Below the pieces are notes generated by a model, which was not told where the DNA came from, did no database searches, and worked only from the letters and a program-made list of their open reading frames with translations. Both the position numbers and the translations under genes were made by a program. 64,000 nucleotides of DNA from assembly GCF_024723255.1 (NCBI RefSeq), contig NZ_JANIAC010000001.1, forward strand, positions 449,548 through 513,547. The letters are read 5' to 3'. Shown piece by piece: positions 10,873-57,780 of the stretch (position 1 is its first letter; every line of letters begins with the position of its first letter). This DNA is from Aestuariibaculum sp. M13. Its GTDB lineage: Bacteria > Bacteroidota > Bacteroidia > Flavobacteriales > Flavobacteriaceae.

Positions 10873-10984
10873 TTATTTATTTTTTATCAACAGATTAAAA
10901 TTTCAGTTATTCGCTCTAAAAAAGCTCCCCAAAACTCTTACATCCTTATTTATTGAAAGGAACCTAAAATTAAGTTCCTTATTG

Positions 10985-11057
10985 CACGGGTTGAGAGACT
11001 CGAACTCCCGACACCTGGTTTTGGAGACCAGTGCTCTACCAACTGAGCTAAACCCGT
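10985..11057 (-). tRNA. tRNA-Trp (anticodon CCA)
   Basis: A 73-base cloverleaf. The acceptor helix ACGGGTT pairs with AACCCGT, the D-arm reads TAGCTCAGTTGG, the anticodon loop is CTCCAAA and the T-loop is GTTCGAGTC. The 3' CCA is not encoded. It sits between tuf and secE and would be cut out of the operon transcript. Confidence 0.97.
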
Positions 11058-12305: not shown

Positions 12306-12376
12306 GTTTTTTAAATAATTTAATCTTAGTTATATAATAATATTAGTGTATTCTAATCTTTCTTCTTCTAAAATAG

Positions 12377-12448
12377 AGCCAATGACGAGATTTGAACTCG
12401 TGACCTCTTCCTTACCAAGGAAACGCTCTACCCCTGAGCTACACCGGC
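12377..12448 (-). tRNA. tRNA-Thr (anticodon GGT)
   Basis: A 72-base cloverleaf with acceptor GCCGGTG/CATTGGC (two G-T pairs), D-arm TAGCTCAGGGGT, anticodon loop TTGGTAA and T-loop GTTCAAATC. No CCA is encoded. It is the last of four tRNA genes directly upstream of tuf and decodes ACC/ACU. Confidence 0.96.
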
Positions 12449-12460
12449 CTTAAATATTAG

Positions 12461-12533
12461 AGCGGGAGACCGGGTTCGAACCGGCGACATTCAGCTTGGA
12501 AGGCTGACGCTCTACCAACTGAGCTACTCCCGC
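12461..12533 (-). tRNA. tRNA-Gly (anticodon TCC)
   Basis: A 73-base cloverleaf with acceptor GCGGGAG/CTCCCGC, anticodon loop CTTCCAA and T-arm CCGGTTCGAACCCGG. No CCA is encoded. It is 12 bases upstream of tRNA-Thr(GGT) in the same transcript and decodes GGA/GGG. Confidence 0.97.
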
Positions 12534-12576
12534 AATTATTTAACAATTCCTTGTTTAGTTGAGACAAAATAAATTG

Positions 12577-12658
<82 letters not shown>

Positions 12659-12699
12659 AATTTTACCTTATTTTATCTTACTTTATTTTAAAGAACTTG

Positions 12700-12773
12700 A
12701 GCCGATAGAGGGACTCGAACCCACGACCTGCTGATTACAAATCAGCTGCTCTAGCCAGCTGAGCTATATCGGC
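12700..12773 (-). tRNA. tRNA-Thr (anticodon TGT)
   Basis: A 74-base cloverleaf with acceptor GCCGATA/TATCGGC, D-arm TAGCTCAGCTGGC, anticodon loop TTTGTAA and T-arm CGTGGGTTCGAGTCCC. It is the first gene of the tRNA-tuf operon, about 45 bases downstream of the predicted transcription start. It decodes ACA/ACG and complements the GGT isoacceptor in the same cluster. Confidence 0.97.
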
Positions 12774-23097: not shown

Positions 23098-23493
23098 ATG
23101 GAAGAATTAACGCTTACTACACCAGCTGTCTTATTTTCAGCAATTTCATTAATCATGCTGGCTTATACCAATAGATTTTTAGCCTATGCTGCAACCATTA
23201 GGGATTTACACAGTAAATATCAAAAAAATAAAGACCGTGTGCTCTACGCCCAAATTAAAAACATTAAAACGCGATTGTACCTTACCCGATCGATGCAAAT
23301 TTTTGGCATTAGCAGCTTATTACTTTGTGTGCTTACCATGTTTTTAATTTACATACAACAACACACGGCTGCCGTTTGGGTCTTCGGAATTGCTTTAATC
23401 CTTCTTATTATATCGCTTTCTTTATTGATTATGGAAATTCAAATTTCAGTTAAAGCTTTAGAACACCATATTAGTGATATTGAGAAAGAATAG
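23098..23493 (+). CDS. DUF2721 family membrane protein
   Basis: 131 residues with three predicted membrane segments (about 8-30, 68-90 and 94-115). A basic cytoplasmic loop (HSKYQKNKDRVLYAQIKNIKTRL) lies between the first two. The family is widespread and of unknown function. A -7-like element TAAATTTG stands at 23072-23079 without a clear -33 partner. The gene ends 45 bases before the structured repeat at 23539. Confidence 0.8.
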   Translation: MEELTLTTPAVLFSAISLIMLAYTNRFLAYAATIRDLHSKYQKNKDRVLYAQIKNIKTRLYLTRSMQIFGISSLLLCVLTMFLIYIQQHTAAVWVFGIALILLIISLSLLIMEIQISVKALEHHISDIEKE

Positions 23494-23538: not shown

Positions 23539-23613
23539 GCGTTAGGGGTTGAAGCGGCATCCTTTTGCTTTTGCAAAAGATATAGCTGAAGACCCGACCC
23601 GAAGGGTAACGCC
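23539..23613 (+). repeat. Structured repeat, copy A (second copy lies upstream of ssrA)
   Basis: A 75-base element beginning GCGTTAGGGGTTGAAG and ending GACCCGAAGGGTAACGCC. GCGTTA and TAACGC can close the element. Inside, CTTTTGC-TTTT-GCAAAAG makes a 7-bp hairpin and ACCC-GAA-GGGT a 4-bp hairpin, giving a three-way junction. TTTGTTTG, one mismatch from the -7 box, directly precedes it. It lies between the stops of two convergent genes, 5 bases from the permease stop. The copy at 57244-57319 has the same ends and fold but a different middle. Confidence 0.65.
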
Positions 23614-23617
23614 CAAA

Positions 23618-24853
23618 TTATTCAAACCTAATAGCTTTAACCGGAGATATTCTGGTAATGATGTAAGACGGCACCAATAACATAAACAAACACAGAAAAA
23701 GGGTACCAATGTTTAAGGCTAAAATATATCCTACATTAATATAAACAGGTGCTTCGGTTACGTAATAAACACTTGGATCTAACGGAAATAATTTCAAATA
23801 TTTTTGAGCCAGAAGAAGTGTTAAACCAATTAGATTTCCCCAGAATAGCCCCAAAAGAATGAGGTAACTGGCATTATATAAAAATAGTTTTCTAATACTC
23901 CAGTTGTTACTCCCCAAGGCTTTTAAAATCCCGATCATTTGTGTACGCTCCAGAATTAAAACCAGTAATGCGGTAATCATATTAATGCCTGCTACTAAAA
24001 TCATGATTCCAATGATACCATAGATATTCGTATCGAAAATACCTATCCACTCAAAAATAGAAGCGTACTTATCGGTTATCGTCTGACTATTTAAAGTAGA
24101 TGGTGTGTTCTGATAAATTTCTATACCCTTTTTTTGAATTTGATTATAATCATCAATAAAAACTTCGAAATTACCAACCTGATCTTCATCCCATTTATTG
24201 ATACGTTGAATGTGTCTAATATTCCCAATTAAATACTGGGCATCTAAATCCTGAAAACCGGAATTATAAATACCTACAATATGAAAGGTTATAATATTTG
24301 GCAACTTTTCCGGGTCATCCTTTGGAAATACCATTTGAAATTTATCGCCTAACTTAAACTTTAATCGATTGGCTAGATATTCAGAGATTAAAACTTCTTC
24401 ACTCCATTTCTTTGTAAAATCTGGTAATTGCCCCTCAATTAAAAACTCTTTAAAATACTCCCAATCGTAATCGGCTCCCACGCCTTTAAGATAAGCACCT
24501 TCAAAATCGGTTTCCGTTCGAATCACCCCAAATTTCGCCGCCACAGCCTGTACATGTTTTATACCTTCAACCGAAGTAAACTCCGGATAAAAATCCTGAT
24601 TTATAGAAATTGGATATAAGCTTTCCTGCGAATTATTGCTATCGTAATTGGTAATCGTTACATGCCCATTAAACGCCACCACCTTATCTCGTATTTTTTG
24701 CTGAAGCCCAATACCGGTTGCAATGGCGATCATCATCACTACAATACCAATGGTAATTGCCGCTATACCAATTTTTATTATTGGTGCCGATACACTACTT
24801 TTATACGCTTTACTACCAATAATGCGTTTAGCTATAAAATACTCGTAATTCAA
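23618..24853 (-). CDS. ABC transporter permease, LolC/LolE (FtsX-like) family
   Basis: 411 residues: N-terminal membrane helix at about 26-48, a periplasmic MacB-type core domain at about 50-265, then three helices (about 275-300, 322-346, 373-398) of an FtsX domain. The C-terminal ISPVKAIRFE is typical. It probably works with a separate ATPase in lipoprotein release (LolCDE-like); no ATPase is adjacent. The family N-terminus MNYEYFIAKRI aligns with a TTG codon at 24851-24853, and the next Met is within the first membrane helix, so TTG is the likely start. Only 8 bases separate it from the divergent namZ start. Confidence 0.85.
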   Translation of the reverse strand: MNYEYFIAKRIIGSKAYKSSVSAPIIKIGIAAITIGIVVMMIAIATGIGLQQKIRDKVVAFNGHVTITNYDSNNSQESLYPISINQDFYPEFTSVEGIKHVQAVAAKFGVIRTETDFEGAYLKGVGADYDWEYFKEFLIEGQLPDFTKKWSEEVLISEYLANRLKFKLGDKFQMVFPKDDPEKLPNIITFHIVGIYNSGFQDLDAQYLIGNIRHIQRINKWDEDQVGNFEVFIDDYNQIQKKGIEIYQNTPSTLNSQTITDKYASIFEWIGIFDTNIYGIIGIMILVAGINMITALLVLILERTQMIGILKALGSNNWSIRKLFLYNASYLILLGLFWGNLIGLTLLLAQKYLKLFPLDPSVYYVTEAPVYINVGYILALNIGTLFLCLFMLLVPSYIITRISPVKAIRFE

Positions 24854-57210: not shown

Positions 57211-57238
57211 TTGAATTACAAAGTTTTTGATAACTTTG
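57211..57238 (+). promoter_or_regulatory. Promoter of the ssrA leader
   Basis: TTG (57211-57213), a 17-base spacer and TAACTTTG (57231-57238) fit the consensus. The predicted start, about 57243, coincides with the first base of the structured repeat (57244), so the tmRNA precursor would begin with that repeat. Confidence 0.7.
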
Positions 57239-57243
57239 CGTTC

Positions 57244-57319
57244 GCGTTAAGGATTAAGGCATTGTTGGAGCTCCTTGAAAAGAGCGACTGCCGAAAGCCT
57301 GACCCGACAGGGTAACGCC
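57244..57319 (+). repeat. Structured repeat, copy B, in the ssrA leader
   Basis: A 76-base element beginning GCGTTAAGGATTAAGGC and ending GACCCGACAGGGTAACGCC. As in copy A (23539-23613), GCGTTA pairs with TAACGC and ACCC-GACA-GGGT forms the last hairpin. The central hairpin is different (GCTC...GAGC region with GGAGCTCC). The mature tmRNA begins 20 bases after it. Confidence 0.65.
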
Positions 57320-57339
57320 ATACTTATGAAATTAATATT

Positions 57340-57732
57340 GGGGTCGACTGGTTTTGACAGCGAGATTAATTGAACGGTAAGCACGTCGTGTAATGATTTT
57401 GAAACACGTTAAAGGCTAAATCAAACTTTAAACGGCGAGAATAACTACGCTTTAGCTGCTTAATTCTGAATTATAGTAAGATTGCCTAGGCGCACAAGGT
57501 GCGCAAGCTAAATGTCTCCGGAAAGCCTTGGTTAACGGCGTTCCTTTTAGAGGCATCGTAAATGTTGACATAGATTGGGTCCTGCTTCGATGCCCTTTCG
57601 AAACTTAAGAAGCTAAGCTAATAAGTAGGTTGTCTTTAACCAGCTTTTAGTCGAAAACTTAAGAAAAGAATAAACGTGTAGAAAGCCCTTTGGTTACTTG
57701 TTTGGACGAGAGTTCGATTCTCTCCGACTCCA
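57340..57732 (+). ncRNA. ssrA: Transfer-messenger RNA (tmRNA)
   Basis: 393-base RNA that rescues stalled ribosomes. The tRNA-like ends pair (GGGGTCG with CGACTCC), with a T-arm GAGAGTTCGATTCTC and no encoded CCA. The tag frame starts at 57434 with GGC and encodes GENNYALAA, then TAA (57461-57463), the usual flavobacterial tag for ClpXP. Pseudoknot-like segments follow. It is preceded by a promoter and the structured repeat, and followed by a strong terminator. Confidence 0.97.
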
Positions 57733-57737
57733 CTTTT

Positions 57738-57780
57738 AAGCCTCGAAAAAATTAAAATTTTTCGAGGCTTTATTTTTTCT
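57738..57780 (+). terminator. Intrinsic terminator of ssrA
   Basis: AAGCCTCGAAAAA (57738-57750) pairs with TTTTTCGAGGCTT (57758-57770), followed by TATTTTTTCTT. It lies 5 bases after the tmRNA 3' end. Confidence 0.9.

Follow-up and report, generated by a model that had tools for sequence, protein, structure and literature searches.

A Flavo-1-related folded element at the predicted 5′ end of the tmRNA precursor in Aestuariibaculum sp. M13 and its relatives

Introduction

Why should a compact folded sequence, of which further copies are scattered over the genome, stand between the promoter of ssrA and the mature tmRNA? The question is raised by a locus of Aestuariibaculum sp. M13, contained in a stretch of DNA of 64 000 nucleotides that was analysed as a whole (hereafter, the window). 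tmRNA is the RNA that rescues stuck ribosomes, and the 5′ leader of its bacterial precursor is removed by RNase P. The original prediction placed a promoter and a folded repeat directly 5′ of ssrA, and proposed that the leader could steer tmRNA processing, sense something or be released as a separate small RNA.

Results and discussion

The ssrA locus

The features of the ssrA locus given here all lie on the plus strand of the window. The putative promoter comprises a TTG in the −33 region (57211–57213), with similar TTG-type stretches in the congeners, and, 17 nt further on, TAACTTTG (57231–57238), which reads as the flavobacterial sigma-A −7 box; TAnnTTTG is the sigma-A −7 consensus given for Flavobacterium psychrophilum in the main text of PMC9723704. 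This promoter is absent from the listing of an E. coli-type promoter scan. A gap of 5 nt, read from the sequence, separates the box from a 76-nt element of the Flavo-1 type (57244–57319), which carries a core of type B and lies at the predicted start of the pre-tmRNA. An A+T-rich spacer of 20 nt (57320–57339) leads to the tmRNA (ssrA; tag GENNYALAA), located at 57340–57733 by ARAGORN and at 57340–57735 by Rfam RF00023. A terminator-like hairpin followed by a run of T (57738–57770) is the sole site of this kind returned by a terminator scan of the plus strand between 57100 and 57900, with none before the tmRNA. The predicted arrangement, TTG-N17-TAACTTTG followed by the element at 57244–57319, is therefore borne out, and the repeat has been confirmed by further copies. 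Elsewhere in the window, a tRNA cluster (Thr-Gly-Tyr-Thr, 12376–12773) and a tRNA-Trp (10984–11057) lie on the minus strand.

Fold and base-pair conservation

The covariance model R1, built on an alignment (A1) of 15 copies from the window's genome, describes a three-way junction in which P1 closes the element, P2 bears an exchangeable hairpin core and P3 is a short hairpin. In the window copy, as judged from fold and covariation, the 5′ strand of P1 (GCGTT, 57244–57248) pairs with AACGC (57314–57318); the 5′ strand of P2 (AGG-A-TT, 57250–57255) pairs with AA-G-CCT (57295–57300) around an A·G mismatch (57253/57297); and P3 is the hairpin CCC-GACA-GGG (57303–57312). The core, delimited by comparison of core types, spans 57258–57292 (GGCATTGTTGGAGCTC ... 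GAGCGACTGCC). All these strands are read on the plus strand.

Taken alone, the window element folds with −24.2 kcal/mol (z −2.1, with nine of 200 shuffles as good), which is modestly unusual; the comparative evidence is much stronger. Over 97 aligned copies, double changes occur in 17 of the 18 modelled pairs, and the 146 double-changed cells compare with 27.6 in shuffles, a value of 146 being reached in none of 500. The top pair of an unsupervised covariation scan was columns 12/184 (T-A 67, A-T 17, G-C 6), which had been absent from the R1 modelling; Rfam's Flavo-1 structure likewise pairs at this position, in the P2 region. In the ssrA copies (n = 72), the cells of 12 core pairs hold 836 Watson-Crick combinations, seven G-U, three A-C and six others.

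Of 201 copies, 82% are stabler as the given RNA strand than as the reverse complement, the mean difference being −3.4 kcal/mol; this is a comparison between copies that share ancestry and are not independent. Over 12 pairs in 140 non-ssrA copies, G-T mismatches outnumber A-C mismatches (35 versus 13, p 0.002); when one pair is removed from the same set, the figures become 19 versus 13 (p 0.38), and in the ssrA copies they are 7 versus 3. As evidence for RNA rather than DNA, this bias is only suggestive. No conserved single-stranded seed was found in the copies, the most conserved unpaired positions being those of the internal loops.

Occurrence before ssrA and distance from the promoter

A full-length ssrA was available for 38 relatives, 24 in the family Flavobacteriaceae and 14 outside it. 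At E ≤ 0.01, R1 found a sense copy 5′ of ssrA in 14 of the 24 family genomes (11 of 21 genera), and the element precedes ssrA in all three congeners. The comparison of leaders in relatives that the original prediction had called for hence excludes an absence from close relatives. At the same threshold no copy was detected upstream of ssrA in the other 10 family genomes or in any of the 14 outside the family. Because of these genomes, the element is dispensable for ssrA, and the role in tmRNA processing that had been proposed is possible but not required. Two of the 10 have degenerate elements: one genome would count as the fifteenth carrier, recognizable but weak (G024, E 0.18), and another, by eye, as a decayed sixteenth (G022), while a third (G012) has none. 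The spacing between element and tmRNA in the relatives ranges from 20 to about 200 nt. Two genomes have a copy downstream of ssrA on the opposite strand, about 0.3 kb (G006) and about 1.3 kb (G026) away.

Named genomes yielded 67 loci with AACGCC at 12–42 nt before the tmRNA, a count that is no measure of prevalence, as this pattern requires the element's end only; at least four of the species are also among the 38 relatives. The full element is present in 64 of these pattern-selected loci; of the other three, L286 has an element that runs off the end of the locus, L268 has a partial copy (E 0.03) and L260 has none.

In 59 of the 64 named loci, TAnnTTTG occurs at most 80 nt upstream of the element. 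The gap from box to element is 3–8 nt in 44 of them (exactly 6 in 35), which makes the start predicted near 57243 plausible: judging from the sequence, transcription in the window would begin at the element's first base or within about 3 nt of it, some 3–6 nt past TAACTTTG. Such a start at the first base does not extend to all ssrA loci, because the gap is 35–46 nt in 15 of the 64 (e.g. L294, L299 and L316), where extra sequence intervenes, and five have no TAnnTTTG within 80 nt.

Dispersed copies

In the window's genome, R1 matches 28 places at E ≤ 1 and 25 at E ≤ 0.01. Matches were also found in 27 of 40 relatives (with the window's genome counted in). Of 149 genomes sampled from the family, 107 had matches (E ≤ 1e-4); across the phylum, 198 were sampled and 26 had them. 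The neighbours of the other copies, named from reading the sequences, presumably include metF, hemE, pheS, queA, glyA and fabI. With respect to the flanking genes, as defined by a simple ORF caller, 165 copies were distributed as −E− (both neighbours antisense, 53), +E+ (both sense, 45), convergent (27) and divergent (18), while 19 overlapped an ORF and three were undetermined. Since copies elsewhere lie in both orientations, the general role of the family is not that of a leader. The main text of PMC9723704, the one transcriptome study found to discuss Flavo-1, similarly describes its matches as indistinctly sense or antisense to transcribed regions, many of them in none, and as giving no real clue to function.

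The promoter sets the ssrA copies apart. TAnnTTTG occurs at most 60 nt upstream of 12 of 13 ssrA copies (at 4–9 nt in nine of the 12) and of nine of 152 non-ssrA copies, against a background of 3.7% per 60-mer, so that copies away from ssrA appear to have no promoter of this kind.

The positions of the copies are largely shared between related genomes. In at least one of the three congeners, 24 of the 28 copies of the window's genome are found at the same place, and 23 of the 25 at E ≤ 0.01. The remaining two of these 25 have decayed counterparts, one of them (L041) in both G002 and G003 and the other (L052) in G002, with G003 and G001 unclear; these differences look like losses, not gains. 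At least nine of the 24 non-ssrA copies have a counterpart in another genus that matches them in both flanks, in a comparison that covered part of the copies of other genera, and no recent insertion was found among the copies compared. Deep conservation of position is thus not peculiar to ssrA; what distinguishes this address is the promoter at a fixed spacing. In a narrow test of phage carriage, one exact 26-mer gave no match in viral_contigs.

Relationship to Flavo-1

The identification as Flavo-1 (RF01705) came from an Rfam scan of copies with another core. At the window element itself, Rfam scans returned only the tmRNA, and Flavo-1 gave no match to the ssrA copy at E ≤ 10, nor any in L117. 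Seven ssrA loci picked for having a core of type A (L308, L279, L258, L311, L304, L288 and L297) all scored above the Rfam Flavo-1 threshold of 42 bits, with 50.5–59.1 bits. The window contains a second Flavo-1-type copy, with a type A core (23539–23613, plus strand), which reaches 36.7 bits with the Rfam model, below the gathering score of 42; its neighbours are two convergent genes, with their 3′ ends towards it (23098–23493, plus strand, and 23618–24853, minus strand).

In order to test kinship without circularity, a second model (R2) was built from 17 type A copies only. R2 finds the window element at 57244–57319 with 42.6 bits (E 1.2e-9), and over the whole window at E ≤ 10 it gives two matches only, this element and its own training copy at 23539. 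It recovers 23 of 25 element loci with other core types, missing L103 and L253, and matched none of eight ssrA loci without the element. A further Flavo-1 trait, the P2 helix with an A·G mismatch followed by two U-A pairs, is present in the window element (57250–57255/57295–57300), which shares with the Flavo-1 of PMC2864571 also the phylum Bacteroidota. The type A core (GCGG..CC / GAUAUAGCGG) is absent from the window ssrA copy, which has type B, and the Rfam consensus structure differs from the element in having neither P1 nor P3 and a single core type.

The window copy scores below the Rfam gathering threshold of 42 bits and is therefore classed as a variant: on sequence comparison, it is best described as a Flavo-1-related element with a core outside the curated model, not as a curated member. 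Lacking the two helices and the other core types, the Rfam model undercounts the Flavo-1 family. The family itself is known, having been described in 2010, while its role is still blank; the table of Weinberg et al. (PMC2864571) marks Flavo-1 'n' both for cis-regulation and for switch. A search of the open-licence literature, with main-text passages of PMC2864571, PMC9723704 and PMC9029176, gave no report of Flavo-1 at ssrA; the supplements of the 2010 paper may mention tmRNA.

Exchange of the core

Three core types (A, B and C) recur, and in relatives the core changes at the same place while the rest is kept. The Algibacter ssrA loci L278 (type B) and L279 (type A) have 58 of 60 upstream bases and 25 of the 26 bases of the P3-P1 tail in common; they also share a 22-nt apical stretch, T-rich and partly of low complexity, and their internal loop differs on both strands. 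Lacinutrix L254 (B) and Oceanihabitans L293 (A) likewise agree at 57 of 60 positions upstream and at 43 of 44 in the tail. Within the window's genus, L166 (B) retains the unusual P3 of L053 and L161 (C). A change of core with kept flanks is less clean in the pairs L282/L294, L282/L303, L036/L137 and L160/L184. For the gene tree of core types, 74 loci were given, the neighbour gene was found in 62, and 58 rows were used (57 loci and the window); parsimony requires at least 15 changes of core type at ssrA, a soft figure given that 12 of the 55 inner branches are starred.

Most of the core swaps have a straightforward explanation in gene conversion between copies. In L278/L279, where the apex is unchanged, conversion would have to involve either two short tracts flanking it or a donor whose apex was identical. 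A bolder idea, which we consider improbable, is that Flavo-1 would be a standardized docking module, with a constant frame (P1, the base of P2 and P3) and a few interchangeable receptor cores, each exchanged as a whole, even to the point of replacing both strands of the hairpin and leaving its apical loop untouched; the ssrA copy would then couple the 5′ end of pre-tmRNA to a partner protein or RNA shared with the dispersed copies. Among known elements, the BOX elements of the pneumococcus are similarly modular, dispersed and structured, with a variable middle; in the element described here, which belongs to another phylum, the middle is drawn from a small set of alternative cores and is not a repeated unit.

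What the element may do at ssrA

Our preferred reading, to which we give slightly less than an even chance (about 0.45), is that the element acts as a Flavo-1-related folded 5′ leader of pre-tmRNA, which pairs the first bases of the transcript and is removed by RNase P. The ssrA transcript would begin with a Flavo-1-related module that has become established there, a compact three-way junction of P1, P3 and the core-bearing P2, whose helix P1 would lock up the first bases of pre-tmRNA. Folded in this way, the leader would hide the 5′ end from nucleases, and would neither pair with the acceptor half of the tmRNA nor interfere with its folding. Cleavage by RNase P at 57340 would then release a leader RNA of about 97 nt, and the some 24 other genomic copies would represent the same module without such a promoter.

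The leaders predicted for other ssrA genes are mostly shorter. They measure 8–132 nt, and mostly 8–40 nt, in relatives whose ssrA has no element; outside the family they are predicted to be mostly 14–34 nt long and weakly folded, whereas here the leader would be about 97–101 nt with a conserved fold. A plain hairpin opens the predicted leader of some ssrA genes without the element (L101, L106, L126 and L120); such a 5′ hairpin has z-scores between −2.2 and −4.2 (mononucleotide shuffles) in G006, G013, G016 and G023, and was not seen in the element-less leaders of G005, G007, G012, G019 and G022; we do not put such hairpins forward as a substitute for the element. In addition, [GT]TTC[AT]TTGA is found about 15 nt before the tmRNA in five of the 38 genomes (G005, G007, G023, G024 and G038; loci L098, L105, L126, L103 and L123), against a rate of 0.001 in shuffled leaders, and in our view it resembles the boxA of rRNA antitermination.

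A real rival, less probable in our judgement but one to be taken seriously, is that the element is a passive passenger, i.e. a dispersed intergenic element of the REP/MITE type, one copy of which entered the ssrA leader in an ancestor and has stayed there without a role. The roughly 25 copies beside unrelated genes, their occurrence in both orientations (also reported in the main text of PMC9723704), and the loss or decay of the ssrA copy in several relatives (G012, G022 and G024) are in keeping with this reading. The best evidence to the contrary is the maintenance of the pairs by compensatory changes, combined with an unvarying orientation and distance from the promoter at ssrA; the retention of 23 of 25 copies at the same place in congeners, with at least one decayed counterpart for each of the other two, and the nine of 24 non-ssrA copies shared by both flanks with another genus, with no recent insertion, also speak against it. 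The more specific version, a REP-type element moved by a Y1 (RAYT) transposase, agrees with the short, dispersed, imperfect palindromes in intergenic DNA, and differs in the three-way junction and in the conservation of positions between genera. No Y1_Tnp match was found in seven of 13 element-bearing genomes tested, despite 7–39 copies in each, and none of 21 Y1 loci of relatives, nor the Y1 remnant of the window's genome, has a copy within about 1.5 kb. With no link to a cognate Y1 transposase in the own genome or in relatives, this version was rejected as highly improbable. The sole Y1 transposase of the window's genome (G000:C5:576174-576529; L033, L035) is broken by stops and a frameshift.

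Other readings assign an active role to the leader in trans or as a switch. ssrA is usually strongly transcribed, so that the cleaved leader of about 97 nt could act in trans as an abundant RNA, or serve as a decoy for a protein binding to copies of Flavo-1. The compact closed fold and the classification of Flavo-1 as an sRNA gene by Rfam are in its favour, but a conserved single-stranded seed is missing from the copies, and we regard this reading as quite unlikely; release of a separate small RNA as such, already envisaged in the original prediction, is possible. A structured RNA at a predicted transcript start could also suggest a riboswitch or another sensor controlling tmRNA. The original prediction's suggestion of a sensing leader is not supported: no constant family of downstream genes accompanies the other copies, which occur in both orientations, and the only terminator-like site on the plus strand between 57100 and 57900 follows the tmRNA, with no terminator-type switch seen before it. 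The negative entries for cis-regulation and switch in the 2010 table (PMC2864571) point the same way, and a sensor was rejected as very improbable.

Conclusions

That cores are exchanged between loci otherwise almost alike is evolutionarily odd and deserves an explanation. The copy before ssrA, with its fixed place, orientation and distance from the promoter, provides an address where the function of Flavo-1 can be tested, and directly so because tmRNA is a known and measurable product. In many marine flavobacteria, the ssrA transcript appears to start with a folded piece of the Flavo-1 type.
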